Positions 1,881 through 24,236 of a DNA stretch of 64,000 nt are shown here, piece by piece (the stretch's first letter is position 1; each line of letters starts with the position of its first letter). A program made the position numbers and the translations under genes. The stretch comes from an uncultured Bacilli bacterium. Lineage in GTDB: Bacteria > Bacillota_I > Bacilli_A > RFN20 > CAG-826. The stretch is from the NCBI GenBank assembly GCA_905236715.1, contig CAJOMQ010000005.1:1-64000 (forward strand), read 5' to 3'. The notes beneath the pieces are model-generated. The model saw only the letters and a list, made by a program, of their open reading frames with translations, was not told where the DNA came from and made no database searches.

Positions 1881-4522
<2,642 letters not shown>

Positions 4523-4821: not shown

Positions 4822-6155
4822 ATGGAAATGCCTGAAATTGAATTTAAGAGAAAAATATATGACAAAATGATTGAATGGAAAGAAAAAAGAGCACCCAATT
4901 ACGCTTTATTTTTAAGAGGCCCAAGGCGTGTTGGCAAATCTACGCTTGCAAATAGATTAGGACTAGATAAATACAAATCATATATAGAAATTAGATTTGA
5001 TAGAGCTCCAGAAGAAATTAAAAACCTTTTCGTTAATTCTTTATTTGTTTGAAAAACTCCAAGTTCACTACAAAACAAAACTTTATAAAAGAGAATCGCT
5101 TATTATCTTAGATGAAATCCAATTATTTCCAGAAGCTCGTCAAGCGCTTAAAACATTATTAGAAGATAAAAGATACGATTATATTGAAACTGGTTCTTTA
5201 GCATCTATTAAGAAAAAATCAAAAAAAATATTAATTCCATCTGAAGAATATCCGCTTGATGTTTATCCTTTGGATTTTGAAGAATTTCTTTGGGCAATAG
5301 ATGATGATTTCACTTTTGACATCATTAGAAAACATTATGGATCATTAAAGCCACTTGCGTCATCCCATAGCGCAATAAAGAAATTATTCAGAACATACAT
5401 GTTAGTTGGCGGTATGCCACAAGCTGTTTTGGCTTATGTTAAGACAAAAGATTTTGGAGAAGTAGACTTTGCTAAACAACAAATATTAACACTATATGAA
5501 TGTGATATGGATGAGCAAGAGGAAGAAAACCCTGAAACATTAAAGAATATTTTTTGGCATATCCCTTCCGAATTATCTAAGCATGATAAGAAATTTGTTT
5601 TATCTCATATCGACCCTAACGCAAGAATAAGAGATTATAAAGGCCCTTTGGGTTGGCTTAATGACGCCATGATAATTAATATGTCAGAAAACGTCAGTGA
5701 GATTTCAACGGCCTTTAATCTTTCGACAATCGATCCTTATTTTAAATGTTATTTGATGGACACAGGGTTGTTGGTGTCATTAGCTTTTAAAAATAAAGAC
5801 TATCTAGAAAACGAACTATATAAGGCCATTTTATTTGATAAACTCCACATCAATGAAGGGATGCTAATTGAAAATGTTGTTGCTCAGGAGCAGTGGAGAA
5901 AAGGTTTTCTATTATAAAAAAGTGAACAAAGAAACCAAAAAAGCAGAAGCAGAGATTGACTTCCTTATAAGAAGAAACAATAAAGTTAATCTTGTTGAAG
6001 CAAAATCAAGTGATTCAAACAATATCGAGTCTTTAAAAAAAGTAAAGGAAATGTTTTCGGATAGAATCGGAAAACAAATTGTTCTTCATGAAGGCGACAT
6101 CAAGGTTGAGAACAATATTGTATATCTCCCGTATTATTTTGCTTTCGTTATCTAG
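4822..6155 (+). pseudogene. AAA ATPase with DUF4143-type C-terminus, interrupted by two frameshifts
   Basis: Walker A LRGPRRVGKST, Walker B SLIILDEIQLFPEARQ, IETGSLASI, C-term AEIDFLI...VEAKSS spread over three frames; breaks near 5035-5060 and 5885-5900. Confidence 0.85.
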
Positions 6156-6578: not shown

Positions 6579-6608
6579 TTGAGAATAAAATGACCCTTAT
6601 TATATAAT
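6579..6608 (+). promoter_or_regulatory. Promoter TTGAGA-18-TATAAT
   Basis: -35 6579-6584, -10 6603-6608. Confidence 0.65.
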
Positions 6609-6618
6609 AATTATGTCT

Positions 6619-6634
6619 ACTAAAACGTTTTAGT
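6619..6634 (+). promoter_or_regulatory. LacI-family operator ACTAAAACGTTTTAGT
   Basis: Perfect 16-bp palindrome with central CG, at the predicted TSS; near-identical to 19951-19968. Confidence 0.75.
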
Positions 6635-6645
6635 GAGGTGCTCAT

Positions 6646-8655
6646 ATGGCCAAATTATCTTTAAAACATCTTTATAAAATTTATGATAACGGCACTAAGG
6701 CTGTTGATGATTTTAATTTAGAAATTGGCGATGATGAGTTTGTTGTTTTCGTTGGTCCTTCTGGATGTGGCAAATCTACGACTTTACGTATGATTGCGGG
6801 TTTAGAAGATATAACAGCCGGTGATTTTTTAATTGATGGCATTTTAGCTAATAACCTCGAGCCAAAAGATAGAGATATGGCTATGGTTTTCCAAAACTAT
6901 GCTCTTTATCCTCATATGACTGTTTATGACAATATGTCATTTGGTCTAAGAATTAATAAAACTTTGTTACCAGCATATGACAAAGAAGGCAAAGAAATTC
7001 TTAACGAGGATGGAACACCAAAATTAACCATAAGACACTATACAAAAAAAGAAATTGATGCTCGTGTTCAAGAAGCGGCAAGAATGCTTGATATTGCAGA
7101 CCAATTAACCAAGAAGCCAAAAGAAATGAGCGGTGGTCAGCGTCAGCGTGTCGCTTTAGGTAGAGCCATTGTTAGAAAACCCAAAGTATTTTTATTGGAT
7201 GAACCATTATCTAATTTAGATGCAAAATTGCGTAGCTCAATGCGTAGCGAAATTATCAATCTGCACAATAGACTTGGAACTACCTTTATTTACGTGACAC
7301 ACGATCAGATTGAAGCCATGACAATGGGAACGAGAATTGTTGTTATGAAAAAAGGCGTTATTCAACAAGTTGATACACCAATGAATTTATATGATTATCC
7401 AGAAAATTTGTTTGTAGCAAGCTTTATTGGCACTCCACAAATGAATTTTTTGGAAGCAAATATTTTCTTTAAAGATAATTCCTACGTTTTAGATTTTGGT
7501 GATTTTTCCATTGAATCAGACATGGCATTATTTAGAAAACTTGATTTAGCTAATGTTTTACAAAAAACAAAAGTAAAAGTCGGAATACGTCCTGAACATA
7601 TTCTTTTAGCTGATGAAGGTGAAAAAAATAGTTTTAAAGCCACAATCAGTATTATTGAATCTTTGGGAAACGAAGCTAATTTTCTCTTAAAAACGATGAA
7701 TGGTGAGCATTCATTTACTGCCAGATTGTTAAGAAATGACGCATTAAAGGTTGGAGATACTATTTGTGTTAAATTCGATTTAGAAAAAATACATTTATTT
7801 GATATTGATAGTGAAAATACTCTCTTGCCTCGTGTCCCCACTAATTCGGTGATTAAAGCGGAATATTTGAATGGCTTTTTCAAGATTTTTAATAAGAAAA
7901 TTCCTATTTTGGAAAGATATAAAGCAGAAATCATTAATGGAACATATTATTTGCACATTCCTAATTCATCATATTTAGAAGGGAAAGATTATTCTTTGCC
8001 GATGATAAATAAAGAATGTATCAATAAGAAATGGCTTATTACTATGAAAAGTGATGGGGGATATCTCAATTATTATTCGGAAAAATATATTGACAGTGAT
8101 ATCGCCGATTTTTCCTTGGATTGGTCTAAAATTTCTGTTTACGATGAAAAATACCAATGTGTGATTCCCGCAATGATTGAAGAAAATATTATTGATGGCA
8201 CACTGGTACCGGTTAAGAAACCTATGACTTTGCTAAATGGAACATTGTACGATCAAGAAGAAGCGGAAGAAAAAATAAATAATTCTTCGACAAAAATAAA
8301 ATCTAAAATCAAAAATATGAAGGTGTTTGACTATGAAATATTTGGCCAAACTTACACTCCTAACGATAAATCGATCATTAAAATATATTCTCTTTTAGGT
8401 AAAAAGTTTGCTTTACACAACATTAAATTTACTATTCCTTGTGAATCATTTAGTTTTGCTAGTGAAGGTATTGAAGGCATTATTAAGGATATATATGAAT
8501 ATAGTCACAGCAAATTTTATCGTATTGAAATAGGCGATAAAGAAATCGTTGTAAAATCTAATGAAAGCCATGATGTAGGTGAAACAGTACTTATCAATTT
8601 CGATATAAATAGTATCGGTGTTTTTGATGTTAATTTTGGAGTGAAATTAATCTAA
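6646..8655 (+). CDS. Carbohydrate ABC transporter ATPase (MsmX/UgpC type) with long C-terminal extension
   Basis: GPSGCGKST, MSGGQRQRVALGRAI, LLDEPLSNLDAK; TOBE-like region, then about 270 extra aa. Confidence 0.92.
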   Translation: MAKLSLKHLYKIYDNGTKAVDDFNLEIGDDEFVVFVGPSGCGKSTTLRMIAGLEDITAGDFLIDGILANNLEPKDRDMAMVFQNYALYPHMTVYDNMSFGLRINKTLLPAYDKEGKEILNEDGTPKLTIRHYTKKEIDARVQEAARMLDIADQLTKKPKEMSGGQRQRVALGRAIVRKPKVFLLDEPLSNLDAKLRSSMRSEIINLHNRLGTTFIYVTHDQIEAMTMGTRIVVMKKGVIQQVDTPMNLYDYPENLFVASFIGTPQMNFLEANIFFKDNSYVLDFGDFSIESDMALFRKLDLANVLQKTKVKVGIRPEHILLADEGEKNSFKATISIIESLGNEANFLLKTMNGEHSFTARLLRNDALKVGDTICVKFDLEKIHLFDIDSENTLLPRVPTNSVIKAEYLNGFFKIFNKKIPILERYKAEIINGTYYLHIPNSSYLEGKDYSLPMINKECINKKWLITMKSDGGYLNYYSEKYIDSDIADFSLDWSKISVYDEKYQCVIPAMIEENIIDGTLVPVKKPMTLLNGTLYDQEEAEEKINNSSTKIKSKIKNMKVFDYEIFGQTYTPNDKSIIKIYSLLGKKFALHNIKFTIPCESFSFASEGIEGIIKDIYEYSHSKFYRIEIGDKEIVVKSNESHDVGETVLINFDINSIGVFDVNFGVKLI

Positions 8656-8656
8656 T

Positions 8657-9652
8657 ATGAGCAATATTACAATTAAAGATGTCGCTAAAAAAGCTAACGT
8701 TTCTATTTCGACGGTTTCTTTAGTGTTGAATGGAAAAGCGGAAAATATTCCTGATGTTACGATAGAAAAAGTCAAAGATGCTTGTCGCACATTAAATTAT
8801 AAAAGAAATATGAATGCTTCATCTTTAAAAAGCAAAGTTAGTAAATTAGCCGGTTTAATTGTGCCTGATTTAGAAAACTCGTACTATTCTCGTGTTGCTA
8901 GTTGTATATCCACAATTCTCTATGAGCGCGGTTATAGTTTGGTAATTTCCAGCTGCGATAATAATTTTGAAAAAGAGGTCGACTATATTAACCAAATGGC
9001 CGCGAGACAGGTTGATGCTTTGTTTCTCTTTCCTTCAGCAATTGGCTTATCCGACAAGAACAAACCATTATTGAAGAAAACACTCGATGATTGTGGTTTA
9101 AAAATAATTATTCTTGATAGACAAACTTTCTTAAATTCATATATTGAAGTGGTGAATGATGACTTCTATGGTGCGACTTTGGCTTGTCAATTTTTGGTTA
9201 ATAAAGGCTTTAAGCGAATTGCTTGTATCACTGGGCCAAAAAATGTTTCATCTAGTGATGATCGTTTAGCGGGATATCTTGAGGTTGTCAAACAAAATGG
9301 TATTTTTGACGAAAGCCTTATCTATGTTGGCGATTATCATTCTGAATTAGCGAGAATACAAGCTAGATTAATTCTTCAAAGAAATGATGTTGATGCCATT
9401 TTCGCCTTTAATGATTTATCCGCTTATGCCGTTTATGAAGTGGCTGGAGAACTAAATAAAAAAGTAGGAGAAGATATTTTTGTTGTGGGTTATGACAACA
9501 ACCCATTCTCAGCCTTAATTACTCCTAAATTAACTTCTGTCGGACAAAATATTAATGAAATGTGTCAAATTGCGGTTGATAGAATGTTTGACAAAAGAAA
9601 TGTCATTGAAACTATAAAAGTGCGTCCAACTTTGGTGGAGAGAGATGAATAA
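8657..9652 (+). CDS. LacI-family transcriptional regulator
   Basis: N-term TIKDVAKKANVSISTVSLVLNGK HTH and periplasmic-binding-like core. Confidence 0.95.
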   Translation: MSNITIKDVAKKANVSISTVSLVLNGKAENIPDVTIEKVKDACRTLNYKRNMNASSLKSKVSKLAGLIVPDLENSYYSRVASCISTILYERGYSLVISSCDNNFEKEVDYINQMAARQVDALFLFPSAIGLSDKNKPLLKKTLDDCGLKIIILDRQTFLNSYIEVVNDDFYGATLACQFLVNKGFKRIACITGPKNVSSSDDRLAGYLEVVKQNGIFDESLIYVGDYHSELARIQARLILQRNDVDAIFAFNDLSAYAVYEVAGELNKKVGEDIFVVGYDNNPFSALITPKLTSVGQNINEMCQIAVDRMFDKRNVIETIKVRPTLVERDE

Positions 9653-10628
9653 GAATATGAGAATGTTTCACAAGAAAACCCCATATGAATTGACTCTAGA
9701 TAGCATTTCTCCTTTAGCTACTAAGCACAAAAAGAAAAAACTTACTAGAAGTAGCATGCAATTAGCAATCATGGTTTTTTTTATCTTCATCTTTGCTTAT
9801 TTGCCTATGTTTGGCTTAATTTTGGCATTTAAAAAAGGAGATGGCTACCTCAACATAATGGATGCTATCTTTAATTCTCCTTGGGCAGGATTTGATAACT
9901 TTAAACATTTTTTTGAGGACCCTGATTTTGCTAATGTCATGCTCAATACATTAGGCCTTAATTCATTACAACTTTTAATTAATTTCCCAGCGCCTATTAT
10001 CTTTGCCATATTATTGAGCGAACTGCCATGGAAAAAAATAAGAAAAACGATGCAAACCATCACCTATTTCCCTTATTTCTTATCTTGGATTACATATGGC
10101 GGAATTATTCTTACTTTAATTAATAGTGACGGCATTGTTAATACAATTTTATTGAAAACAGGCATTGTCAACACTCCTGTCGAATTCGGCGAAGCGAAAT
10201 GGTTTTGGCCTTTAATTATCATTACATCCTTATTAAAAGGTTTAGGCTGGGGATCAATTATTTATGTGGCGGCAATTGCTGGTATTGACCCGCAATTATA
10301 TGAAGCGGCTAACATGGATGGTGCTAATAGGTTTCATAAAATCTTCCACATTACTATCCCCTGTATTGCTCCAACTATTGTTTTGTTCTTTATATTGTCA
10401 GTCAGCGGAATCTTAAATAATGGTTTTGACCATATATGGACATTCCAGACGCAAATTAATTTATCTAGAAGTGAAGTACTTGATACTTTTATTTATAAAT
10501 ATGGCGCCGTTGAACAAATGTATTCTTACACAACTGCAGTTGGCTTTTTCAAATCGGTTGTTGCGATTGTACTTTTAGGTGTTGGCAATTTTGTGGCCAA
10601 GAAAACCACTGGAAGTGGGGTAATCTAA
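9645..10628 (+). CDS. ABC sugar permease (LplB-type)
   Basis: TM protein with EAA-loop YEAANMDGANRFHKIFHITIPCIAP. Confidence 0.92.
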   Translation: MNKNMRMFHKKTPYELTLDSISPLATKHKKKKLTRSSMQLAIMVFFIFIFAYLPMFGLILAFKKGDGYLNIMDAIFNSPWAGFDNFKHFFEDPDFANVMLNTLGLNSLQLLINFPAPIIFAILLSELPWKKIRKTMQTITYFPYFLSWITYGGIILTLINSDGIVNTILLKTGIVNTPVEFGEAKWFWPLIIITSLLKGLGWGSIIYVAAIAGIDPQLYEAANMDGANRFHKIFHITIPCIAPTIVLFFILSVSGILNNGFDHIWTFQTQINLSRSEVLDTFIYKYGAVEQMYSYTTAVGFFKSVVAIVLLGVGNFVAKKTTGSGVI

Positions 10629-10629
10629 T

Positions 10630-11553
10630 ATGGTAGTAAAAAAATCATATAAGAAAAACCGCCTAATGGTTGGAACAACAGGTAAAAAGCATCGCAAAGG
10701 TGTGTTTGACTACGTAAATTTAGTCTTTATGATTATTTTTGCTTTATTAAGTGTCTATCCACTTATTTATGTTTTGGCGGGTTCATTTAATCAGGGTTCT
10801 GATTATATTGCTGGAGGAATATATCTATTTCCACGCGTATTTTCTCTTGAAAATTATCGTGTTGTTCTTGCCGACGTAAGACTTTGGAAGAGCTATGGAA
10901 TAACTATTGCAAGAACCATTTTAGGAACTATTTCTGGTGTCTTATTTACCGCTATCGTGGCCTTTGCAATGTCGAGAAAAAATCTCATGGGCAAAAGTCA
11001 TATCTATCGTTTCTTCGTTTTCACAATGTTTTTTGGAGGCGGATTAATTCCTTATTTCTGGGTAATCAATCTTCTGGGGCTATTCGATACTTTCTGGGTT
11101 TATATAATTCCAGCTTTATTTTCTGTTTACAACATGTTGGTATTTGTTAATTTCTTTAAGACTATTCCTGAAGAAATCCATGAATCCGCCGTTATGGATG
11201 GGGCTAGCGAATTTAAAATTTTCTTCAGAATTATACTGCCGTTAAGTGGACCAGTTATTTCTACAATTGCTTTGTGGATTGCTGTAGGGCATTGGAATTC
11301 CTTCTTTGATACGATGATTTATACATCTAACAACAATTTATGGACTCTTCAGTACTACTTAATGAAGGTCATTAATGAATCATCTATGCCGGCAGCAGGC
11401 ATTGCTTTACCGCAAGAATTATTGGATAAGATTGCCCCAGAGACTGTTTCTCTTGCCGCTATCATTGTTTCAGTCATTCCTATTTTTGCTTTATATCCAC
11501 TTATTTTAAAAACACTAACCAAAGGTGTTGTTATAGGCAGTTTAAAAGGGTAA
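10630..11553 (+). CDS. ABC sugar permease (YtcP/LplC-type)
   Basis: EAA-loop HESAVMDGASEFKIFFRIILPLSGP. Confidence 0.92.
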   Translation: MVVKKSYKKNRLMVGTTGKKHRKGVFDYVNLVFMIIFALLSVYPLIYVLAGSFNQGSDYIAGGIYLFPRVFSLENYRVVLADVRLWKSYGITIARTILGTISGVLFTAIVAFAMSRKNLMGKSHIYRFFVFTMFFGGGLIPYFWVINLLGLFDTFWVYIIPALFSVYNMLVFVNFFKTIPEEIHESAVMDGASEFKIFFRIILPLSGPVISTIALWIAVGHWNSFFDTMIYTSNNNLWTLQYYLMKVINESSMPAAGIALPQELLDKIAPETVSLAAIIVSVIPIFALYPLILKTLTKGVVIGSLKG

Positions 11554-11567
11554 TTAGGAGGTTGTTT

Positions 11568-13304
11568 ATGAGCAAAAAATCAATTATTGTTTCCTTAATT
11601 TTATCAGGCATTGTTTGTACTACATCTGGTTGCTTTCGTAGCACAGGACCCACGAAAGAAATTAAATATCCAGACTATCCATTGACTCCAGACGATAAAG
11701 ATTCTTGGGAATATTTCAAAGATGAAAACGGAAATGTTGAGTCCTGGGATATTGAATGGTATGTCAATGATTCGACTTTCGCGTGGAACTCATATGGCAG
11801 TGACAGAGTCAGCCAAATTATCAAACAAAAAACCGGTGTTAATATCAAATTTACAGTTCCAGTAACTGATGATGGACAAAAATTATCTACCTTAATTTCC
11901 GGAAATAAACTTCCTGATTTAATTTCTGTGCAATGTTGGTATAACCAATGCCATCAATTGGCGGATCAAGGTTATTTGTATCCATTAGATGGTTTGATTG
12001 AAAGATGGGCCCCCTCCTTCAAAAACAGAGAACAGGAAGATATTTGGAAATATTTTTCCGAATCTGATGGAAATACATATGGGATTCCCAATTTTGCCTA
12101 TTCCACTCAATATGTTAATGATTCCGATAAAATGGAACCAAACGGTGGCTTATTAGTCCGCAAAGATTGGTATTTAGAAGCGGCTGCTGCCGGATATGAT
12201 ATGACTACTCCGACATCATTCATTGCGGGGTGCAAATATATTTCAAGTCAGCATTCAGATATTATTCCATTACAATTATCTTCTTTCACTTCCGAAGGTA
12301 ATACCTCTATAAACTGGCTATCTCAATATTTTTGTTCCGCTTTTGAAGATAGCAAAGGCAATTACCAAGATACCCGTTTGACGGATAGATATAAAGAAAT
12401 GCTGGAATTTCTCAACACTTGTGTGAAAGAAGATATTGTTAAAACCGCAAATTTCTCCGATAAAGCCGAACAAATTAGAACCAAAATTTCTCGTGGGAAA
12501 GTATTTGTTAGTGCAGTCACACCACAAGATTTTCAAACCGCTTTCCTCAAATGCTATACAGATGGTGTGGAATATATACCACTTGTTTTAAAGAACAAAG
12601 ATGGCCAGGCACCCATTTTGCAAGATATTTCCGGCAATGGTTATTTATTAACAATGGTGTCGAAAAATTGTAAAAGACCCGATAAAGTTATCAAATTATT
12701 GGATTTCTTATATAGTGAAGAGGGACAAAGATTAGTGGCTTTTGGTATCGAGGGAGAATCTTATAATTGGAATGATACCCATGATGCCATTGTCTGGACT
12801 GATCGTTATGTTGCTGGCATCAATGGTGATTTAGAGGCACAAGCATGGATTAATGAACTTGGCTTATATCAAATGACTCTCCTAATGAATCTTGCTTACA
12901 TTAACAAAGTTAAACCGCTTAATGGTAGAAGAGCAAGCGATATCTATATCGATAATTTGAAAAGACCAATGATTCCTTATGCGTATAATTTCAAGCCCAC
13001 CTTTTTAAAACATGATACGACGAAAGAAAATTATTTTGATATTGCCACAAAATATGACAAAACCAAGACCAAATGGGCGGAATTCATTGTCCAAATTCTC
13101 AGAGGAAGCAACTGGAAAAACGAATACGATAGTGCAATAAAATACCTCAATAGAATTGGCTTAGAAGAAGTCAACGCCTTCTATTCTGAGTCCTACAAAG
13201 AAACAAAAGAATTATTAGGTATTGAATGGGGTTATCCATCTAATAGACCAGACTATACGGAGCCAGTAACTGGTCCTAATGGTGATCCTAGTTACTATAG
13301 ATAG
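11568..13304 (+). CDS. Extracellular solute-binding lipoprotein (LplA-like)
   Basis: Lipobox TSGC, SBP-like sequence, adjacent to permeases; ATG with SD AGGAGG. Confidence 0.88.
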   Translation: MSKKSIIVSLILSGIVCTTSGCFRSTGPTKEIKYPDYPLTPDDKDSWEYFKDENGNVESWDIEWYVNDSTFAWNSYGSDRVSQIIKQKTGVNIKFTVPVTDDGQKLSTLISGNKLPDLISVQCWYNQCHQLADQGYLYPLDGLIERWAPSFKNREQEDIWKYFSESDGNTYGIPNFAYSTQYVNDSDKMEPNGGLLVRKDWYLEAAAAGYDMTTPTSFIAGCKYISSQHSDIIPLQLSSFTSEGNTSINWLSQYFCSAFEDSKGNYQDTRLTDRYKEMLEFLNTCVKEDIVKTANFSDKAEQIRTKISRGKVFVSAVTPQDFQTAFLKCYTDGVEYIPLVLKNKDGQAPILQDISGNGYLLTMVSKNCKRPDKVIKLLDFLYSEEGQRLVAFGIEGESYNWNDTHDAIVWTDRYVAGINGDLEAQAWINELGLYQMTLLMNLAYINKVKPLNGRRASDIYIDNLKRPMIPYAYNFKPTFLKHDTTKENYFDIATKYDKTKTKWAEFIVQILRGSNWKNEYDSAIKYLNRIGLEEVNAFYSESYKETKELLGIEWGYPSNRPDYTEPVTGPNGDPSYYR

Positions 13305-13316
13305 AGAGGTACAATT

Positions 13317-14723
13317 ATGCTTAATATATTAAAAATTCTAGGCCTTATCACTTTATCAGCATCCTCTATTGTTTGCTCAAGTATAGGGAAAAACCAAATA
13401 CAAAACATTACTCCCGGCAACGATTATCTAAATGTTGATTTCAATGATGATATTAAGGGTGGAGTGAAAATTACCTGTTCGCGAGATACCGAAAATAACG
13501 ACTTTTCGGAAATGACGATGACTTTTCCTAATGCGTTAGATTTTTCCACTCAACATGCTTTTACTATGAAAATGAAATCAATCTCCACTGGTTTTCCATT
13601 CTTTTTCAATGTTTTTGATGAAAATGATAATTCTATCCAATTACCAGCAAATAACGACTCCACAAAACGCATTTATCATGTTGATAGTAGCGGAGTGGTT
13701 TACAAATGTTTAAGAGGTGGCAATCCCAACACCATTAAATATGAATCAAATACGAGTGGCACTCTTGTTTTCCCTCTTGATAGCATGATTCCGCTAAGTG
13801 GGACAATCGATTATACAAAAATCAAAAAAATTAAAATTTCGATTGCCGTTTTTTATGATTATGATTTTGCTTGCTGCTTTGGCGACATAGGTGTTATCGA
13901 TGATGATGGAAAATGGTCAATGAAATTTGATTGCTCAGAATATAAATTTAATGAAATTTACGCAATCACTGCATTTCCAGAATACATGAATATTTCCGAA
14001 GTAAAAAATTCTGGCAAAGCCACTTGGATGGGCGATGCTAAAATAATTAATGAATTAAACTATGCATCCACTGAAGAATTACAACATGCCGTAACGTGGA
14101 ATAGCGGAGATAATGTTTGCTCATATTGGCAAGAGGATGATGCCATGCGTGTCCACATTGGCCCCTACGAAATTGGCCATACCTATGGCAGCTATATGTG
14201 TTTGAAAATTAGCAATAGTGATGCATTAGATGATTATGATTTCACTCGTGATGTGGATGGGGAAACTTCATATGCCAAAGGCTTGACAATGTTTGTGAAG
14301 AATTGCTCGAGAAAAGAAATAGGCATTAATTTACAATTTGACGAATTGACACAAGCTAACACATACGAAAGATGGATTATGAAAGGCTATCCCGCCATGT
14401 ATTACGCCTGGGACGTCATCAAAAATGAAGAATATGTTTTTTATTCTAAAAGTGACCAATTCCAAATTCCCGTTGGCTTTGAAGGCTATGTGAGAATTCC
14501 TTTTGATCAATTGCAAGTTCCCGATTGGAATATTGGCACCGATGGTGTAGACCAAGAATTAGATTTAAGCCGATTCAATAAAGAATTTTATTTAACTAGT
14601 GATAATACACGTTACGAAGATTTGGAATTCCTTATTAAAAATATAGGTGTGTACTTCAATGACACTTATAAAGCCAATCTTTTTGATAACAGCCACGGCA
14701 TTAAATCCAATATGGGTTTATAG
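13317..14723 (+). CDS. Predicted lipoprotein with jelly-roll/CBM-like domains
   Basis: Signal peptide ending SIVC; beta-rich; segments resemble those in the 20003 and 21170 proteins. Confidence 0.6.
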   Translation: MLNILKILGLITLSASSIVCSSIGKNQIQNITPGNDYLNVDFNDDIKGGVKITCSRDTENNDFSEMTMTFPNALDFSTQHAFTMKMKSISTGFPFFFNVFDENDNSIQLPANNDSTKRIYHVDSSGVVYKCLRGGNPNTIKYESNTSGTLVFPLDSMIPLSGTIDYTKIKKIKISIAVFYDYDFACCFGDIGVIDDDGKWSMKFDCSEYKFNEIYAITAFPEYMNISEVKNSGKATWMGDAKIINELNYASTEELQHAVTWNSGDNVCSYWQEDDAMRVHIGPYEIGHTYGSYMCLKISNSDALDDYDFTRDVDGETSYAKGLTMFVKNCSRKEIGINLQFDELTQANTYERWIMKGYPAMYYAWDVIKNEEYVFYSKSDQFQIPVGFEGYVRIPFDQLQVPDWNIGTDGVDQELDLSRFNKEFYLTSDNTRYEDLEFLIKNIGVYFNDTYKANLFDNSHGIKSNMGL

Positions 14724-14732
14724 GAGGATCTT

Positions 14733-15872
14733 ATGAAAAAAATTGTTTCATTATTTTTTGTCTTAGCATCGATATCTTTGATGTCTTGCAGTCATGAGAA
14801 TGATAATTCCAATAGCGGTAGTAATAATATTGATCCGTCAATTATTCCAGAGCCAACTTCGGGTGAATCTAAAAACAAAAAAGGCATTGGAACCATTTTT
14901 GATGAATATTTAGGTTATAACACTAAAGACGCAACAGTTTTTGAAGAAGAAGATGCGCGTTACGTTATTTATGATGGGCAAAAAGAAAAAGAGGGTAAGC
15001 AAATTTTTGTATCAAGAAAAGCCGTTAAAGAGGGCAACCAATGGGTTTATGGTGAAAAACATTTGGTTTTGGAAGGTAGCGAAAATGGATGGGATATAAA
15101 TATTTCTAATCCATCCGTTGTTAAAGGCAGTTTTGCATATCAGGGTAATGATTACTCCTATTTACTTGCGTATAATGGGAACAATACAAGTGACAATACG
15201 AATAACCATATAGGTTTTGCTGTGAGCAATGATGTTTTAGGCACTTGGATTAAAGTGGGTAATCAACCATTGTTGAAAAATCCAGAAAACCAGGAAGCGG
15301 CTTATGGATATGGTTCCCCTTGTTTGTTATCATATGATAATTTAGGCAAAGGCTATATATTTTATGCTGTTGGTGAAATCAATGTCTCTTTTGGGGCTGT
15401 AAAAACTTATGATTTTTCCAATTTAGATGCCCCAGTCATCGAAGGAGGATATTCTTCTTTGCCCGTTACCGGTTTAAATGATAATCAAGATTTAAATGTC
15501 ATATTAAATGCTGGTTTTGCTTTTAATGCGGACAAAAGCAAAGTTTACATGGTCAAAGACCGTCTTCCTGTCAGTAATAATGTTCCTAATCAAAGTAGTG
15601 CGATAGAAGTAGCCAAAGCCAATGCCGAAATCATTGCCAATCACGATGAAAGCTGGTCTTCTTTAAAAATAATTAATTCATTCGATACAATGGATGAAGA
15701 AGATGAGGAATCATTAGGATGGGATGAAATTTATTCCGGTGATTTTGTTACTGACCCCTATGGCAAAATTATTTCTGAAACCAAATTAGAGATAATATAC
15801 AGTACTTTTGATGAAGAGGGTTCTTTACCTAAATTTTCTTCAACACTAGCCAGTTATGAGGTGAATTTGTAA
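14733..15872 (+). CDS. GH43-like beta-propeller lipoprotein, divergent paralogue 1
   Basis: Lipobox LMSC; WDINISNPSVVKGSFAY...YSYLLAY aligned to paralogues. Confidence 0.65.
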   Translation: MKKIVSLFFVLASISLMSCSHENDNSNSGSNNIDPSIIPEPTSGESKNKKGIGTIFDEYLGYNTKDATVFEEEDARYVIYDGQKEKEGKQIFVSRKAVKEGNQWVYGEKHLVLEGSENGWDINISNPSVVKGSFAYQGNDYSYLLAYNGNNTSDNTNNHIGFAVSNDVLGTWIKVGNQPLLKNPENQEAAYGYGSPCLLSYDNLGKGYIFYAVGEINVSFGAVKTYDFSNLDAPVIEGGYSSLPVTGLNDNQDLNVILNAGFAFNADKSKVYMVKDRLPVSNNVPNQSSAIEVAKANAEIIANHDESWSSLKIINSFDTMDEEDEESLGWDEIYSGDFVTDPYGKIISETKLEIIYSTFDEEGSLPKFSSTLASYEVNL

Positions 15873-15874
15873 TT

Positions 15875-17077
15875 ATGAAATATAGACATCTATTTGTTTT
15901 GCCTTTATTGACATTGCTGCTTGGTTGTTCAAACACCAATTCCTCTTCTGTGGAGCCCCAAAAAACAAGAAGCTTTTTACCAGAAGTCGGAGAGGTGCGT
16001 ATGCTATTTGATCACGGGACGATGGGGGAAAGCAATTTTTATAATTATTGCCCATCTATCTTTGTCGAAGATAACAAAGAGCATGTCTATTATTGCACAA
16101 ATAAAGATGAAGGAAATGTGACCGATTATGTCGGCTATCGCGTTGGTACATTATCGGATAATGAAATTAAATTTTCTGACACTGATTTTGCTTTAGAACA
16201 TGGTGAATTGGGCTCTTGGGATTCCCGCCACGTTTGCGACCCTAGCGTTGTGAAAGGAAAATTTAAATTTCACAATGAAACATACTCTTATCTAATGGCG
16301 TTTTTAGGGTGCGTTCCTAGCGATTGCACTTTAAATGAAACAGGAATAGCTGTGGCTAAAAGCCCGGAAGGTCCTTGGATTAAATGCGATTATAGTAGTG
16401 ATAATACAAAAATTAATCCAATTGTTCCTTATAGCGATTTCTCTTGTGACACTAATAGTTGGGGAACCGGCCAGCCGTCTGTTGTTTCTGTGGATAAAGA
16501 AGGAAAGGTTTTAATTTTTACAACAATTGGAGCCACTAATGGTACTTTTACCAATATCCGCTTATATGATTTTTCCGATATCGACCATTATCAAAAATTA
16601 CAAGAAAAAAACAAATTTACTTGTGATGGCATTCGACAAAATTACAGCGGCGACTCCTTTATTAACAACGCCGATTTTGCCTATGATTTAAAAAATCGAA
16701 GAGTGATTATGGCCAAGCCACGTCAATATTACGGTAAGGATGGATTAAATCCAAATTTTGTGGCGGACACAATTGATTTATATTACATCGATGATACTGA
16801 ATTTGACGATATTGGTGTTGGGGATGTTTTATTTGCCGGAAATAACACTGCTAAATCATGGAAATTAATTGGTTCAATTAATCAAGAATTAACTGGATTT
16901 TTAAGAAACCATAATACTGGATTAATTACTGACCCTTATGGTCATTTGTTTGATCACACTAAAATTGGGGTTGCTTTTACACGAAGTGATGAGGGCTTAG
17001 GTAATAACTGGAGTTATTTAAATACCTACCGCATTTATGCGACTAGTTTTGCTATTCCAGAAAGCTATTTCAATTAA
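15875..17077 (+). CDS. GH43-like beta-propeller lipoprotein, paralogue 2
   Basis: Lipobox LLGC; YNYCPSI...YYCTN...WDSRHVCDPSVVKG...GTGQPSVVS...RNHNTGLI. Confidence 0.75.
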   Translation: MKYRHLFVLPLLTLLLGCSNTNSSSVEPQKTRSFLPEVGEVRMLFDHGTMGESNFYNYCPSIFVEDNKEHVYYCTNKDEGNVTDYVGYRVGTLSDNEIKFSDTDFALEHGELGSWDSRHVCDPSVVKGKFKFHNETYSYLMAFLGCVPSDCTLNETGIAVAKSPEGPWIKCDYSSDNTKINPIVPYSDFSCDTNSWGTGQPSVVSVDKEGKVLIFTTIGATNGTFTNIRLYDFSDIDHYQKLQEKNKFTCDGIRQNYSGDSFINNADFAYDLKNRRVIMAKPRQYYGKDGLNPNFVADTIDLYYIDDTEFDDIGVGDVLFAGNNTAKSWKLIGSINQELTGFLRNHNTGLITDPYGHLFDHTKIGVAFTRSDEGLGNNWSYLNTYRIYATSFAIPESYFN

Positions 17078-17084
17078 AAATCGT

Positions 17085-17780
17085 ATGGCGATGAATTTTT
17101 ATAAAACATTATCAAATCCATTCTTCCGTTTTTGCCGGAGATTTTTCATTTTGCTATGTTTAAATTTCATCTTTGTTTTTATGAGTATCACATCATTATT
17201 TGTTCTCTTTGCCCCCGGTCTTATTTCATTGCACATTGTTTGTTGTCAAATAGTCCATGATGAGGATGATAATCCCTTTAAGACTTTTTTTGTAGAAATT
17301 GTCAAGCAATGGTCTTTTGGGTGGCGTTTTGAATTGTTGATTATGAGTGTTTTGTTAATTTCTGGCGCTCTTTATTTTGGCGATTATATTTATGCAACTT
17401 ATATTTCTTATGATTTATTTGTGTGGTTTTCATTAATATTTGTTTCGGTCATTTTATTGGTTCTTATAACCATTTATTTCAATTTTATTTCCTATAACAA
17501 TTACATTAACGACGACACTTTTTTTATGATGCTAAGAAAAAGCGCTTTAATTACCAAAAAGCATGTATGGCATTCTTTGCTGATGGTTTTGTTTTTCTTA
17601 GCGATTGCAGTTGTTTGTTTTCTTGTCCCTTTTATTATTCCTTTTGTCCCTTTTAGCGCTAGCGCTATTATATGCGAAGCATTTAATAGAAAAATGTTTA
17701 CCAATATTGCTATAGAGGAACAGGAAAGAATGCTAAAAGAAGAAAATTTATTTCTACCATCTACAGAATTGAAGGATTGA
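17085..17780 (+). CDS. YesL-like (DUF624) membrane protein
   Basis: Multi-TM protein, N-term NPFFRFCRRFFILLCLNFIFV; sits with an LplABC-type importer. Confidence 0.7.
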   Translation: MAMNFYKTLSNPFFRFCRRFFILLCLNFIFVFMSITSLFVLFAPGLISLHIVCCQIVHDEDDNPFKTFFVEIVKQWSFGWRFELLIMSVLLISGALYFGDYIYATYISYDLFVWFSLIFVSVILLVLITIYFNFISYNNYINDDTFFMMLRKSALITKKHVWHSLLMVLFFLAIAVVCFLVPFIIPFVPFSASAIICEAFNRKMFTNIAIEEQERMLKEENLFLPSTELKD

Positions 17781-17784
17781 TTTT

Positions 17785-18663
17785 ATGAAAAAGAACATTT
17801 TAGTTATTGGCTCATTAAATATGGATTACACCATATATTGCGATAAATTTCCCAAAGATGGCGAAACCATTTTTGGTATTTCTCGATTTATTCAACCAGG
17901 CGGTAAGGGCGCTAATCAAGCCGCTGCCGTAGGCAAAAGTGGATTAACTAATTGTTATTTCTTGGCTTGTCGTGGCATCGATAATGATGGTGAGCAAATT
18001 GAAAAGACCCTCACTGATATTGGGGTGCACTGTTTAATGAAAAAAGTTCCTGTAGAAACAGGTAACGCGACTATATTTGTCAATCGCGAATCAGAAAACC
18101 AAATTGTGGTCGTCTCTGGCGCGAATAACGAATTGATACCCGATGATTTAAAAGATGTTGAATTCAAAGATTATTCATGCATTGTTTTACAAAATGAAAT
18201 ACCAGAAAAAACCAATGAATATATCATCAAAAAAGCACATTCATTAAATATACCTATTATTTATAATCCCGCTCCATATAGACCAATGAGTGAAGAACTT
18301 TATGAAAAGATCAATTATTTCATCGTCAACGAGGTTGAATTGCAATCTTATGCAAAAGAACCAAATATTGATAAAGGAATAAATATCTTATTAAGCAAAG
18401 GAATTCAAAATTTAATAGTGACATTAGGCTCTAAAGGTTCTCTATTTGCTTCCTTAGACCAGACAATTTCGGTTCCATGCTATAAGAGTAAAGTAGTGGA
18501 TACGGTTGGCGCTGGTGATACATATGTTGGCTATTTTGCTAGCGGTTTATGCAGTGGGTTAGACGTCGCCTCGGCGATGGATTTAGCCTCTCGCGCTAGC
18601 TCCATAACTGTTTCTAGAAAAGGCAGCATTATTTCTATTCCAAAAGGTGAAGAAATTAAATGA
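17785..18663 (+). CDS. rbsK: Ribokinase (PfkB family)
   Basis: GSLNMDYTIYCDKFPKDGET, PGGKGANQAAAVGKSG, DTVGAGDTYVGYFASGL. Confidence 0.9.
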   Translation: MKKNILVIGSLNMDYTIYCDKFPKDGETIFGISRFIQPGGKGANQAAAVGKSGLTNCYFLACRGIDNDGEQIEKTLTDIGVHCLMKKVPVETGNATIFVNRESENQIVVVSGANNELIPDDLKDVEFKDYSCIVLQNEIPEKTNEYIIKKAHSLNIPIIYNPAPYRPMSEELYEKINYFIVNEVELQSYAKEPNIDKGINILLSKGIQNLIVTLGSKGSLFASLDQTISVPCYKSKVVDTVGAGDTYVGYFASGLCSGLDVASAMDLASRASSITVSRKGSIISIPKGEEIK

Positions 18664-19874
18664 AAAAGATTATATTTGCCCTTATATGGACATTTTGTTT
18701 GATGGGCTGTAGTGCAGCCAAACCAATTAGCCCATCAACATCATCTGAAGAAGATAATGGAGACGCAATGAAAGATTTTTTACCAGAAGTAGGAGAAGTA
18801 AAATTACTTTTCAAACATAGTGATACAGAAACCGTTGGTGATGATGGAGAAGATTATTTTTATAATTATTGCCCATCTATAAAAATAGAGAATGACATTG
18901 AGCATGTTTATTATTGCACCAATCAAATTTGGGGAAATGTAACCGATTTTGTCGGATATCGCCAAGGCAAAATTGTTAATGGAAAATTGCAATTTTCTGA
19001 TGAGAATATAGTAATATCTCCCACAAAGGATACATGGGATGAAAGACATACTTGTGACCCTAGTGTTATTAAAGGAGAATTTATCTATAACGACGAGACA
19101 TATTCGTACTTAATGGCGTTTTTGGGGTGCGTTCCTAGCGATTGCACTTTAAACGAAACAGGAATAGCTGTGGCCAAAAGTCCTGAAGGTCCTTGGATTA
19201 AGTGCAATGGAAATCGCACCGATAATAAGCCAATCAACCCCATTGTTCCTTATGTTGATTTTGGTTGCCAAACAAGCAATTGGGGAACTGGTCAACCATC
19301 TCTTTTGTCTATTGATAAAAAGGGAAGAGTGCTATTTTTTACTACAGTTGGTTGTCCAACTGGTTCTTTTACCGATGTGAGAGAATATGATTTTTCCAAC
19401 ATTAATGAATATAAATTAATAAGAGAAGCGAAAGTATTTATCGGTGGAATCCAAGGAAGCAACAAAAGAGTAAATAATGCGGATTTTTGTTATGATTCTA
19501 CACATAAAAAGTTTTTAATGGCAAAAGGTAGATCACCATTTGGTGGTGATGGATTAACCCCCAATTTTATTGCGGACCAAGTCGATTTATATTACGTTGA
19601 TGCGAGTCAATACGAAAATCCATTTGATGTATTTTTTGATGAAGAAGGGAGTGAGAGCTGGATATTTGTTGACACAATTGGCAAAAATTTATCCAATTAT
19701 CCAAGGAATCACAATACTGGTTTAGTGACCAACGAATATGGATGGATGTTTAAAAATGATCGCATCGGTGTTGCATTCACTTCTTCTCAATATGGAAGCG
19801 CAAGCGCTATGTCTTATTTAAAGACATATCGTATTTTTGTTACGACCTTTATGCTTCCGTATTTGAATGATTAA
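18660..19874 (+). CDS. GH43-like beta-propeller lipoprotein, paralogue 3
   Basis: Lipobox LMGC; strong protein similarity to paralogue 2. Confidence 0.75.
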   Translation: MKKIIFALIWTFCLMGCSAAKPISPSTSSEEDNGDAMKDFLPEVGEVKLLFKHSDTETVGDDGEDYFYNYCPSIKIENDIEHVYYCTNQIWGNVTDFVGYRQGKIVNGKLQFSDENIVISPTKDTWDERHTCDPSVIKGEFIYNDETYSYLMAFLGCVPSDCTLNETGIAVAKSPEGPWIKCNGNRTDNKPINPIVPYVDFGCQTSNWGTGQPSLLSIDKKGRVLFFTTVGCPTGSFTDVREYDFSNINEYKLIREAKVFIGGIQGSNKRVNNADFCYDSTHKKFLMAKGRSPFGGDGLTPNFIADQVDLYYVDASQYENPFDVFFDEEGSESWIFVDTIGKNLSNYPRNHNTGLVTNEYGWMFKNDRIGVAFTSSQYGSASAMSYLKTYRIFVTTFMLPYLND

Positions 19875-19916
19875 CATTCTTCTTTAAAAAAACTTTGTAA
19901 AAAACCAACTAATAAA

Positions 19917-19945
19917 TTGCTTTAGCAAAAATATATGTGTATAAT
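19917..19945 (+). promoter_or_regulatory. Promoter TTGCTT-17-TATAAT
   Basis: -35 19917-19922, -10 19940-19945. Confidence 0.65.
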
Positions 19946-19950
19946 AAAGT

Positions 19951-19968
19951 TAGTAAAACGTTTTAGTA
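19951..19968 (+). promoter_or_regulatory. Second LacI-family operator TAGTAAAACGTTTTAGTA
   Basis: Near-palindrome (one mismatched pair), shares 15 of 16 bases with 6619-6634. Confidence 0.75.
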
Positions 19969-20002
19969 AATGTTAAATACAGCAAAGTGAGGTACTTTAC
20001 TT

Positions 20003-21130
20003 ATGAAAAAGAATTATCTTCTTCCAACATTATTAACCGCCGTTTCTTTGATGCTTGGTGGTTTAACTTTTGCAGGCCAAAAAGGCATACAAAAAGTAGA
20101 AGCAGTTGGAACTTATGTTTCTGAAGTTTGCGTTGACCCCGATATTGATGTTGGAATAAATGTCAAGGCTAGCAGCGAAGCCAGAAGCGATTGGACTATT
20201 GCCCAATTTTATGTTGGCGGTAGCGCCATTGTTGGTAATATGTCAGCTGGTGATTATGTGGCTCTACGAGTTCATGCTCCTACTAGCGCTGGCTCATATT
20301 TTGATATGATTCCTAATTTTGCTGGTAATCCATATCGCATTTCTCTTAATGTTGCTGAAGCAGGTGCGCGTTTTGTCCCAGTTAATTCGACAGCCTTAAG
20401 CAACACGCTAACAAGAGATTTTGATTTACCAACAAATATTTGGGGTGGAATGGATGGTTGGATTTGTTTTCCTAAAACAGGATTTACACGTAATTATTGG
20501 AATACTGGTAATGCTTTAAACTGGAACGCCGATATTTGGGCTGTTTATTTCATGTTCTATGGAACAACAATTGACACCATTAATTTTGATATTGGCGATT
20601 TATGGACCGCAAATATCGATAGTGATGGTTATTTGCATAAAGTAAATCACGTTATTGATTGGACTAAAGCCAATGGAACAAATAACATTAATGATACTGG
20701 AGATGGTAGCACAGATTTGTTATCTATTACCCGCAATAATGAAAACTTAGTTTCTGGTGCCACATTAGCAAGAGCGGTGGCTGACGTTGATGTTTGCAAT
20801 ACCGCTGCATGTTCTACTTTTTATAACAATAATCATGAAGCTATTGATGGCTTAGATAGCGATAATAGAGCCTATTTTGATAATGTCCTAGTCTACGACT
20901 ATGAAAGTGGAGATACCGGGCACACTGGTGGCAAATCGACAGAATATGTTGTTGCCGACAAATGGAATGCTATTATGAATGCTGCTGGTGTAAGTGGTTT
21001 TGCAAGTGCTAGGTTAGTGGTTTTTGATAAAAATAATACTATTTCCATTATTATTCTTAGCGCTGGATTTGCTTTTATCGGCAGTTTAATTGTTTTCCTC
21101 TTTATTAGAAGAAAAAGAAAACATCAATAA
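20003..21130 (+). CDS. Secreted surface protein with C-terminal TM anchor
   Basis: N-term signal peptide, C-term ISIIILSAGFAFIGSLIVFLFIRRKRKHQ. Confidence 0.7.
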   Translation: MKKNYLLPTLLTAVSLMLGGLTFAGQKGIQKVEAVGTYVSEVCVDPDIDVGINVKASSEARSDWTIAQFYVGGSAIVGNMSAGDYVALRVHAPTSAGSYFDMIPNFAGNPYRISLNVAEAGARFVPVNSTALSNTLTRDFDLPTNIWGGMDGWICFPKTGFTRNYWNTGNALNWNADIWAVYFMFYGTTIDTINFDIGDLWTANIDSDGYLHKVNHVIDWTKANGTNNINDTGDGSTDLLSITRNNENLVSGATLARAVADVDVCNTAACSTFYNNNHEAIDGLDSDNRAYFDNVLVYDYESGDTGHTGGKSTEYVVADKWNAIMNAAGVSGFASARLVVFDKNNTISIIILSAGFAFIGSLIVFLFIRRKRKHQ

Positions 21131-21142
21131 TGCTTAAAAATG

Positions 21143-21169
21143 GGCGATTTAAAATCGCCTTTTGTTTTT
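21143..21169 (+). terminator. Intrinsic terminator/attenuator GGCGATTTAAAATCGCC-TTTTGTTTTT
   Basis: Hairpin plus T tract immediately before the 21170 ATG. Confidence 0.75.
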
Positions 21170-23317
21170 ATGAAAATAAATAAAACCCCAATTCTTTTGA
21201 TATCAATGTTATCTCTCTTCATGGTTCCTTCTTCTTTGGATGGAGATTTTAAAATTGCTGAAGCAGGAACAGCATCGGCCGATATACTTTTTTCTCACGG
21301 CACGATTGGAGTGGATAAATATTACAATTATTGTCCATCTATTATGCAAGAAGAAGATGGAACAAGACATATTTATTATTGCACCAATAAAGTGGCGGGC
21401 AATGTTACGGATTACATTGGATATCGAAAAGGTGTTTTACAAAACGGTTCTTATACATGGAGCGAAGAAACAATCGTATTATCACCATCATCTAGTGGTT
21501 GGGATTCACGACATAATTGCGATCCGAGTGTTATTAAAGGAGTTTTTAATTACAACAACCATGAATATCATTATTTAATGGCTTATTTAGGGTGTTTAAC
21601 AAGCGATTCAAGCCACAATGAAGTGGGAATTGCGGTTAGTGATTACCCACAATCAGGTTGGACTAAAGTTGAATCCATCAATCCCATTTGTCATTTTGTC
21701 GGAACTACTGGATATAGCGGCTGGGAATGGGGATATGGACAACCAAGTATCATCTCTGTTGATAAATTAGGCCAAATTTTATTGACTTATACCACGGGTG
21801 AAAGAGATGGAACTTATGTTCGTGTGGAAAAATGGGATTTTTCTAATTTAAATGCACCGATCAAATTAGCGGAAAATGCACATCTGTTTGTTAATGGATT
21901 AACTGATATTAATAAATCCGCCGATTACGTTTTAAACAATGTGGATTTTGCCTATGATGAAGCAAGTGGAAGAATTTATGGAATTCGTGATAGTCACCCC
22001 AATTCCTCTAATAATCCAGAAGTAGCTACTGAAATACAATTAATTTCTTTAAGCAAGAATTTATCCGATTCTTCTGTTGGCGGAAATTTGTTATCAAGTT
22101 CTGGTAGTTGGGTCGTAGTGGATAATATTGGCGTTTCTAAAACGGGTCTAGAAAGAAATCATAATGCTGGCTTAATTAGAGATGAATACGGGCATTTAAA
22201 TAATCCGTTATCACTTGAAATTATATTGACTGGTGCTTCCGAGTCATCCACAACTTGGGGTGCTTTATCCACCTATCGCTTATATTCATATCAAGTAGGG
22301 ATATTCAATAGTGAAAACGACCATTATATTGATGTGTCTGCAAATATCACCTATAACTTTACTAATCCAGATCAATTATCAACTTTTAGAATTATGCCTG
22401 ATAAGGGAGATTTTTCTTCCGGGAATGCCGTTGCTATAAGAATAAGAAACAACACTGGAGTCGATACTCCAATATGGATGGCTTTTAATTCCACGAGTGA
22501 TTATCGGTATCGAGTTATAAATAATACTGATTCAAGTAAGCAATATTACTTATTTTCCAAAAATGGTGAAGTGAATGCTTATGCCTATCGAACATGGGAT
22601 GGTGATGTCTGGCTTAAACCATATTTTGATGGCTGGCTAGTTATGAATAAAGATGACCAAATAACTGATCCTTCATATGCTAATCAGGGAACATTTTCTT
22701 GGAGTTCTATTTACGCCATATATTTTGGTATACAAACTTATTATGACAGCTACGCCAATTATGATGTTGGCGATATTTATATGGTTAACAATTTTGGCAC
22801 CAGTTTTGTTTTTATTGACCCCGTTTTGCAAGTTGGTTTAACAACAAATGAAAGAACAACACAAAGATTTATTTTAGATTATATGGGGAGTGGAGCCATC
22901 AATATAACTAGAAATAATATTTCTTATATTCCAGTCGTGGGATTAATTGACAAAATTGAATATGCAGATTCTTGTAGTGCGTCCTACGCCGATGGATATC
23001 ATAGTTATTCTAAAATCTTGCCATATTATAACGCAGTGAAAGATGACGCTGTCTTTATGAATTATTTCAACACATCATACATTTATGATTATTCACCGAT
23101 TGATACCACTCATTCGCAAGGCAAAAATACACTATATTTAGCTTCTTACAAATGGAATCTAATAATTGAAAGACATACAAATAAAACATATGGGAGTAAT
23201 CACTTGTTACCAATCAGCGAAAATTCCTTTGTTACAGGTTTAATTATTTTGAATATATCATTTGGTTTGTTTGCGTTTTTGATAATAATAAAAACAAGGA
23301 AGAAAAAACATGGCTAA
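21170..23317 (+). CDS. Surface-anchored GH43-like beta-propeller (paralogue 4) with accessory C-terminal domains
   Basis: YNYCPSI...YYCTN...GNVTDYIGYR...WDSRHNCDPSVIKG, then a region like the 20003 protein, C-term TM and KTRKKKHG; start moved to MKINKTP. Confidence 0.75.
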   Translation: MKINKTPILLISMLSLFMVPSSLDGDFKIAEAGTASADILFSHGTIGVDKYYNYCPSIMQEEDGTRHIYYCTNKVAGNVTDYIGYRKGVLQNGSYTWSEETIVLSPSSSGWDSRHNCDPSVIKGVFNYNNHEYHYLMAYLGCLTSDSSHNEVGIAVSDYPQSGWTKVESINPICHFVGTTGYSGWEWGYGQPSIISVDKLGQILLTYTTGERDGTYVRVEKWDFSNLNAPIKLAENAHLFVNGLTDINKSADYVLNNVDFAYDEASGRIYGIRDSHPNSSNNPEVATEIQLISLSKNLSDSSVGGNLLSSSGSWVVVDNIGVSKTGLERNHNAGLIRDEYGHLNNPLSLEIILTGASESSTTWGALSTYRLYSYQVGIFNSENDHYIDVSANITYNFTNPDQLSTFRIMPDKGDFSSGNAVAIRIRNNTGVDTPIWMAFNSTSDYRYRVINNTDSSKQYYLFSKNGEVNAYAYRTWDGDVWLKPYFDGWLVMNKDDQITDPSYANQGTFSWSSIYAIYFGIQTYYDSYANYDVGDIYMVNNFGTSFVFIDPVLQVGLTTNERTTQRFILDYMGSGAINITRNNISYIPVVGLIDKIEYADSCSASYADGYHSYSKILPYYNAVKDDAVFMNYFNTSYIYDYSPIDTTHSQGKNTLYLASYKWNLIIERHTNKTYGSNHLLPISENSFVTGLIILNISFGLFAFLIIIKTRKKKHG

Positions 23318-24236
23318 AGATAAAATGAAAGTAATATTGGATACAGATATTGGTGATGATATCGATGATGCATTTGCTTTGGCATATTTATTAAGCTCAC
23401 CAGAAATAGAATTATTGGGTGTTACCACGGTCTTTCGTAACAGCGCTCAAAGAGCGAGAATGGCAAAATATTTGATAAAAACTTTTGATAAAGATATTCC
23501 TGTTCACGCTGGCATTGATAATCCCATTAAACAAAATCCTGAAGATTTATTATCAATGGAAGTTAAATCCAAAATTAAATATGACAAAAACGGAAAATAC
23601 TGCATTCCTCAATATGAAGAAATTTATGACAAGGAAGAATATGAAGGCGATGATGCGGTAGATTTCATTATTTCAGAAATTGAAAAATACCCTAATCAAG
23701 TTATTTTATGTGTCATTGGGCCAGAGACCAATATAGCTGCTGTCATCAATAAAAGGCCAGATTTAATTCCTTTAATCAAGGAAATTAGAATCATGGGTGG
23801 CGCAATTGGTGACACTATTAATTATCCAGAATGGAATATTGTCTGTGATCCGGAAAGCGCAAAAATTGTTTATAAAAGTGGTGTAAAAATATACGCCACT
23901 GGTTGTAACGTTACTTTACAGTGCCCACTTTCTGATGAGAACATCGCCTTATTAAAGTCAATTGAGTCAAATAAATTATCGGTGTTAGTAAATATGATGA
24001 ATAAATGGCTAGAACATTATTCTTTTACTAGGCCCGTTCTTCATGATCCATTAGCAGTTTCTACTTTAATTGAAGATTTTGTTGTTTTTAAAAAGAAAAA
24101 AATGAAAGTTATTATCGATGGCGAAAAACGCGGTTGGACTATTCCTAGCGAAGATGGAAAAGAATGCTTTGTCGGTGTTTCGCTTAATCATAACTTAGAT
24201 TTCATTTCCCATATCAAAGAGCGAATTTTTAAATAA
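23310..24236 (+). CDS. Inosine/uridine-preferring nucleoside hydrolase family
   Basis: DTDIGDDIDDAFALAYLL, IRIMGGAI, RPVLHDPLAV motifs; no signal peptide. Confidence 0.9.
   Translation: MAKDKMKVILDTDIGDDIDDAFALAYLLSSPEIELLGVTTVFRNSAQRARMAKYLIKTFDKDIPVHAGIDNPIKQNPEDLLSMEVKSKIKYDKNGKYCIPQYEEIYDKEEYEGDDAVDFIISEIEKYPNQVILCVIGPETNIAAVINKRPDLIPLIKEIRIMGGAIGDTINYPEWNIVCDPESAKIVYKSGVKIYATGCNVTLQCPLSDENIALLKSIESNKLSVLVNMMNKWLEHYSFTRPVLHDPLAVSTLIEDFVVFKKKKMKVIIDGEKRGWTIPSEDGKECFVGVSLNHNLDFISHIKERIFK

Follow-up and report, generated by a model that had tools for sequence, protein, structure and literature searches.

A patchily distributed LacI-type locus of uncultured Bacilli with a plausible role in ribose foraging

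Nucleoside hydrolases normally cut N-ribosidic bonds, and LplBC-type importers normally carry oligosaccharides. The rus locus is a Bacteroides PUL with the ribose transporter RusT and reportedly includes ribokinases and a nucleoside hydrolase as well. As described in PMC12596196, B. thetaiotaomicron uses its rus system to scavenge ribose (Glowacki et al. 2020). GH117 enzymes use Asp97 (ZgAhgA) or Asp90 (PpGH117) as general base and an unusual His as general acid (PMC11574756). Our literature search for the gene set reported here returned nothing specific, and the literature searched describes nothing equivalent to the Bacteroides rus system in Gram-positive bacteria.

We analysed a window of 64,000 nucleotides (GCA_905236715.1, contig CAJOMQ010000005.1, positions 1-64,000, forward strand) from an uncultured Bacilli bacterium of CAG-826, a probably gut-dwelling species with a small genome (1.29 Mb). 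Window positions 6619-24236 hold 14 genes, all on one strand and nearly without gaps, which we consider reasonably likely to form a LacI-controlled ribose-foraging locus. Every gene named in the original prediction was recovered in place from the list of open reading frames and the family scans:

6579..6608, + strand: promoter-like TTGAGA-18-TATAAT, 11/12 consensus bases (a consensus match only), directly upstream of O1
6619..6634, no strand assigned: predicted operator O1, ACTAAAACGTTTTAGT, a perfect 16-bp LacI-type palindrome
6646..8655, + strand: ABC importer ATPase, MalK/MsmX type (ABC_tran, 3.7e-31; OB_MalK; TOBE_2)
8657..9652, + strand: LacI-family regulator (LacI HTH, 4.1e-14; Peripla_BP_3, 7.1e-26)
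9645..10628, + strand: LplB-type permease (BPD_transp_1; orthologues in the loci 48-80% identical)
10630..11553, + strand: LplC-type permease (BPD_transp_1; orthologues in the loci 48-82% identical)
11562..13304, + strand: large solute-binding lipoprotein, SBP (SBP_bac_8, 4.3e-10)
13317..14723, + strand: beta-rich lipoprotein, labelled "CBM-like" (conserved in the loci; orthologues usually ~840 aa)
14733..15872, + strand: PropA, surface lipoprotein propeller without the conserved pocket set (GH43, 1.3e-06, 28.5 bits)
15875..17077, + strand: PropB, surface lipoprotein propeller with a C/H/C/D/H set (AlphaFold2 model, Foldseek)
17091..17780, + strand: YesL/MusI-like membrane protein (MusI_fam, 1.4e-08, 34.9 bits against a cut-off of 160)
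17785..18663, + strand: RbsK, ribokinase (TIGR02152, 1.6e-77; ribose-site residues kept)
18660..19874, + strand: PropC, surface lipoprotein propeller, PropB paralogue (53-54%)
19952..19967, no strand assigned: predicted operator O2, AGTAAAACGTTTTAGT, one mismatch to O1
20003..21130, + strand: secreted beta-rich protein with a C-terminal membrane anchor (signal peptide, hydrophobic helix and RRKRK)
21140..23317, + strand: PropD, 725 aa, propeller plus beta-rich domain plus C-terminal membrane anchor
23310..24236, + strand: cytosolic nucleoside hydrolase-fold enzyme (IU_nuc_hydro, PF01156, 2.5e-55, 188.7 bits against 34.2)

Pfam-type scans back the identities of the ATPase, LacI, permeases, SBP, kinase and hydrolase. 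Lipobox signals of the SBP, the "CBM-like" protein, PropA, PropB and PropC, as well as the C-terminal hydrophobic helices of the anchored protein and PropD, were read from the sequence. A foreign origin by base composition was rejected, as the locus (32-37% G+C) resembles its surroundings. Upstream of it lie purA and purB (adenylosuccinate synthetase and lyase, window 1908-4522; purB assigned from sequence) and an AAA_14/DUF4143 ATPase frame with a TTG start and a possibly truncated N-terminus (window 4997-5917). A functional link based on the purA-purB adjacency was rejected because adjacency to related loci is not conserved.

To assess how the locus might be controlled, we compared its predicted operators within and across genomes. 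The start at 6619 given in the original prediction is exactly the first base of the O1 palindrome, which sits ten bases past the promoter-like TTGAGA-18-TATAAT, and O2 stands in front of the genes for the anchored protein, PropD and the hydrolase. In the sequence, a TATAAT box directly precedes O2; no forward promoter was scored there. Scanning of the 1.29-Mb genome showed that O1 and O2 are its only sites at up to two mismatches, and at three mismatches to the 20-mer four strand-matches (two sites, each counted on both strands) were observed versus 0.03 expected from dinucleotide-shuffled windows. Related operators with 2-4 mismatches to the 20-mer were found to precede the ATPase gene of five further genomes (G040, G495, G533, G517 and G531), each with a LacI gene in its locus, and none were found in the LacI-less loci of G023, G045 and G378. 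By this sequence comparison the operators are a phylogenetic footprint, and we infer that LacI binds at the predicted sites. A self-contained LacI regulon, as originally proposed, is thus supported by a regulator within the locus and conserved palindromic operators at promoter-like sites. The description "one LacI gene" holds for the locus, whereas the genome encodes four LacI proteins over the cut-off.

The importer ATPase extends ~280 residues past its TOBE domain, and its orthologues are likewise long (622-679 aa); an ATPase of 848 aa stands in a different locus (L035, L046). The nearest solved relatives of the SBP are 5xs8/5gub and AlgQ2, which presumably bind uronate-type oligosaccharides and not ribosides, and by analogy these ligands would count against a ribose reading. 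For the "CBM-like" lipoprotein we found no Pfam or PDB match and for its long orthologue no significant PDB match, and its AlphaFold2 model was unusable (pLDDT 52.6), so that no family match supports the label. The YesL/DUF624 gene is present and similar to MusI_fam, but its score lies under the family cut-off. Its open frame starts at 17037, overlapping the end of PropB, which makes the ATG at 17091 the likelier start. The anchored protein resembles the end of PropD and had no family match.

We then examined the four propellers, for which the original prediction had assumed GH43-like enzymes. None reached the GH43 (PF04616) cut-off of 32.2 bits (PropA 28.5, PropC 16.3), and PropB and PropD had no Pfam match at all. 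The PropB model was good (pLDDT 86.7, pTM 0.87), with a strand order fitting a five-bladed propeller. Its best Foldseek matches were GH117 and GH43 structures at TM-scores of about 0.3-0.65 and 10-16% identity, and a profile search ranked GH117 first (E 6e-07). In the profile alignment, the general-base Asp of GH117 falls on Cys59 of PropB. Among 41 propellers in our residue table (29 PropB-type and 12 PropA-type), this position is Cys in 24 and Ala in 5 of the PropB type, leaving Asp in none of the 29, and at position 200, where blade III begins, 26 have Gln and 3 have Met. With the blade register assigned by strand order in the PropB model, the blade I and blade III positions of the GH43 Asp/Asp/Glu triad (blades I, III and IV) read C/A and Q/M in all 29 PropB-type proteins. 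The fold predicted by the original note thus stands, while ordinary GH43-like pentofuranosidases are not borne out, given the sub-cut-off scores and the absence of catalytic acids at two positions.

What is conserved instead is a different polar set. PropB, PropC and PropD share a Cys-His-Cys-Asp-His set that the 12 PropA-type propellers lack: Cys74, Cys121 and Asp122 are invariant in 29/29 PropB-type proteins, and His119 and His346, candidates for the place of the GH117 general acid His302 (with Asp320), are kept in 28/29 and lost together in G033. Cys74 and Cys121 may form a disulfide pair. Since Cys59 and Cys146 are lost independently of each other, they are probably not such a pair. As judged from these alignments, the conserved pocket argues for a function of the PropB type, catalytic or binding, and PropA looks non-catalytic. 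Because a GH43/GH117 fold is combined with Cys or Ala at the general base and Gln or Met at the second catalytic position, the propellers apparently represent an undescribed group, whose members would be either binding proteins or furanosidases that use a new chemistry. A bolder proposal, to which we give little credence, is that PropB, PropC and PropD are a new family of GH43/GH117-fold furanosidases which cut ribofuranosyl bonds of a glycan through Cys74/His119/Cys121/Asp122/His346 chemistry or metal binding, in which case the locus hydrolase would be an intracellular O-ribofuranosidase.

RbsK is alignable with E. coli ribokinase and has TIGR02152 as its best library match, scoring 260.8 bits and thus under the equivalog cut-off of 299.65. 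N14, D16, N46, E143 and D255 (E. coli numbering), the established ribose-binding and catalytic residues, are kept in every RbsK copy covering them. The hydrolase aligns with solved nucleoside hydrolases, and its D11, D13, D19, D20, T140, E174, N176, H245 and D246 are invariant in 9/9 orthologues; on this alignment its catalytic and Ca/ribose-binding residues are intact. In a phylogenetic tree, eight locus hydrolases form one supported group (95/92), and the locus hydrolases together with those of G019, G033, Izimaplasma and a few others split at 100/98 from another cluster, which contains the other nucleoside hydrolase of the genome. Nucleoside hydrolases outside the housekeeping cluster in G326, G344 and G358 stand in contexts unlike the locus, which gave no hint of a substrate. 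Because the RbsK and hydrolase residues are kept and RpiB and transketolase are encoded elsewhere in the genome, ribose is the likely product of the locus chemistry, in agreement with the end product first suggested.

To investigate how widely these genes travel together, genomes were searched with the propellers only and the neighbours were read afterwards. Among 281 genomes of the order, belonging to 56 genera, the propeller locus turned up in 13 (10 genera) and in none of five congeners, and is therefore a patchy accessory locus. The cluster is conserved in a dozen other uncultured species, and a cassette of importer, SBP, nucleoside hydrolase, "CBM-like" protein, propellers, YesL and ribokinase was recovered in about ten independent loci. 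Its usual order is ATPase, LacI, LplB, LplC, SBP, nucleoside hydrolase, CBM-like, PropA, PropB, YesL, RbsK and PropC, from which the window departs, its hydrolase having shifted to the far end of the locus. The hydrolase and RbsK occur together in the window, G517, G531, G533, G495, G040, G019, G254 and the near-copies G023/G045/G378, which were counted once; likewise, L007, L008 and L010 match the contigs of G517, G531 and G513 in length, represent the same contigs and were single-counted, and the upstream part of L009 lies beyond the stretch followed. The same genes are spread over two contigs in G513, and a Candidatus Izimaplasma MAG carries SBP-hydrolase-CBM (L138) and PropA-Prop-Prop (L011). 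A distant locus from an Oscillospiraceae MAG (L012), included among the independent loci, combines LacI, LplBC, SBP, RbsK and a propeller with a distant relative of the hydrolase. G033 has the importer, the hydrolase and one propeller, with no RbsK nearby. The original prediction had called for a conserved neighbourhood of propeller, RbsK, nucleoside hydrolase and LplABC and had named homologous loci lacking RbsK and the hydrolase as contrary evidence. A conserved neighbourhood of propeller, RbsK, nucleoside hydrolase and LplBC was indeed recovered, and because both enzymes are conserved, the survey did not refute the prediction on this point.

Several of these loci show peculiarities of their own. 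In G495, and in this MAG only, YesL and RbsK form a single in-frame open frame of 529 aa (L127:16152-17741), in which the genes for the membrane helper and the kinase may have fused. The hydrolase gene of G254 is split in two frames (L048:5807-6701), as a pseudogene or by assembly error. L012 encodes a 790-aa protein between SBP and hydrolase (L012:5649-8021) with no Pfam or PDB match. The loci of G023, G045 and G378 (L032-L035, L045-L046) are near-identical, share upstream flanks across two assigned genera and carry no LacI, reflecting either recent transfer or shared MAG contigs.

Together, these observations suggest the following ribose-foraging route. Outside the cell, the surface propellers and beta-rich proteins would bind a ribofuranosyl-containing glycoconjugate or nucleoside-bearing polymer, which PropB-type propellers might perhaps also cleave. 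Going by their families, the SBP and the LplBC-type importer with its own ATPase, aided by YesL, would import a small ribofuranoside. The cytosolic nucleoside hydrolase-fold enzyme, with its conserved residues, would then split the ribofuranosyl bond and free ribose, and in the strongest step, which likewise has residue evidence, RbsK would produce ribose-5-phosphate usable by RpiB and transketolase. LacI would repress both promoters via the operators described above until a substrate-derived inducer appears. The chief difficulty lies in the pairing of an oligosaccharide-type importer with an enzyme family whose normal targets are N-ribosides, which makes the imported molecule ambiguous: either it is a saccharide that contains a nucleoside, or O-ribosides are what the hydrolase cuts. 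G033 without a nearby RbsK and the propellers without catalytic acids at two positions also count against ribose foraging.

Some of the same evidence would fit nucleoside salvage, in which the importer takes up free nucleosides from gut nucleic acids, the hydrolase splits them and the propellers only concentrate material. A hydrolase with a full catalytic set accompanied by a ribokinase, a PropA without pocket residues and a PropB type without the GH43/GH117 acids at two positions would all suit this scheme, which we nevertheless regard as unlikely. purA-purB, although just upstream here, do not adjoin the related loci, the locus is without a nuclease or phosphatase, and the several propellers of each locus, whose polar pocket is conserved, exceed what salvage needs. 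Moreover, the SBP is AlgQ2/5xs8-like, and known nucleoside ABC importers use, to our knowledge, another SBP family.

That RbsK and the hydrolase have drifted to another pentofuranose, such as arabinofuranose or apiose, strikes us as quite improbable: many of the GH43/GH62 fold relatives found by Foldseek are arabinofuranosidases and RbsK stays under its equivalog cut-off, but every tested ribose-contact residue of ribokinase is kept, the ribose/Ca-binding columns of the hydrolase are invariant, and we recognised nothing else from a pentose pathway among the genes of the window locus. We find it hardly credible that the propellers belong to GH43 or GH117 and attack a known substrate, for example arabinan or agar, by the mechanism usual for these families. 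The shared fold and weak similarity to both families are outweighed by the 29/29 PropB-type proteins with Cys or Ala for the general-base Asp and Gln or Met at the blade III Asp position and by the low TM-scores and identities of even the best Foldseek matches, and none of the locus genes was recognised as belonging to an arabinose or anhydrogalactose pathway.

Ribose foraging thus remains our preferred reading. Ribose-containing polymers are a little-studied gut nutrient, and if the reading is true, the locus supplies genes, an operator and candidate enzymes for their use in mostly uncultured bacteria. Its propellers offer a testable case of a glycosidase fold that lacks the usual catalytic acids while another polar set is conserved across bacterial families.

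The locus was also compared with known systems. GH117, represented by the 3,6-anhydro-alpha-L-galactosidases ZgAhgA and PpGH117 and their relatives Zg3597/Zg3615, is the best profile and Foldseek match and shares the five-bladed propeller, whereas PropB has Cys59 at the general-base Asp, Gln at the blade III Asp position and 11-16% identity, and no agar pathway was recognised here. GH43/GH62 furanosidases share the fold and a weak PF04616 match, but the propellers are under the Pfam cut-off and non-acidic at two catalytic-acid positions. The hydrolase has the fold and the DxD...DD, E/N and HD motifs of IunH/Rih nucleoside hydrolases and differs in that two residues are inserted in its DxD...DD loop and its lineage is distinct from that of the other copy in the genome. 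LplABC/YesLOPQ-type glycan ABC loci of Bacillota likewise have LplBC permeases, a large SBP and YesL; here, in contrast, the importer has its own long-extension ATPase and is coupled to a hydrolase and RbsK, not to classical glycoside hydrolases. With its LacI-controlled ABC importer and lipoprotein propellers in a small-genome Bacilli, and no Bacteroides PUL outer-membrane transport genes, the locus is built from other parts than rus and is therefore not a member of it. Compared by role, rus (BT2803-2809) is nonetheless the nearest functional parallel, in that it serves the kind of dedicated, transcriptionally controlled scavenging of ribose as a carbon source that is predicted here.
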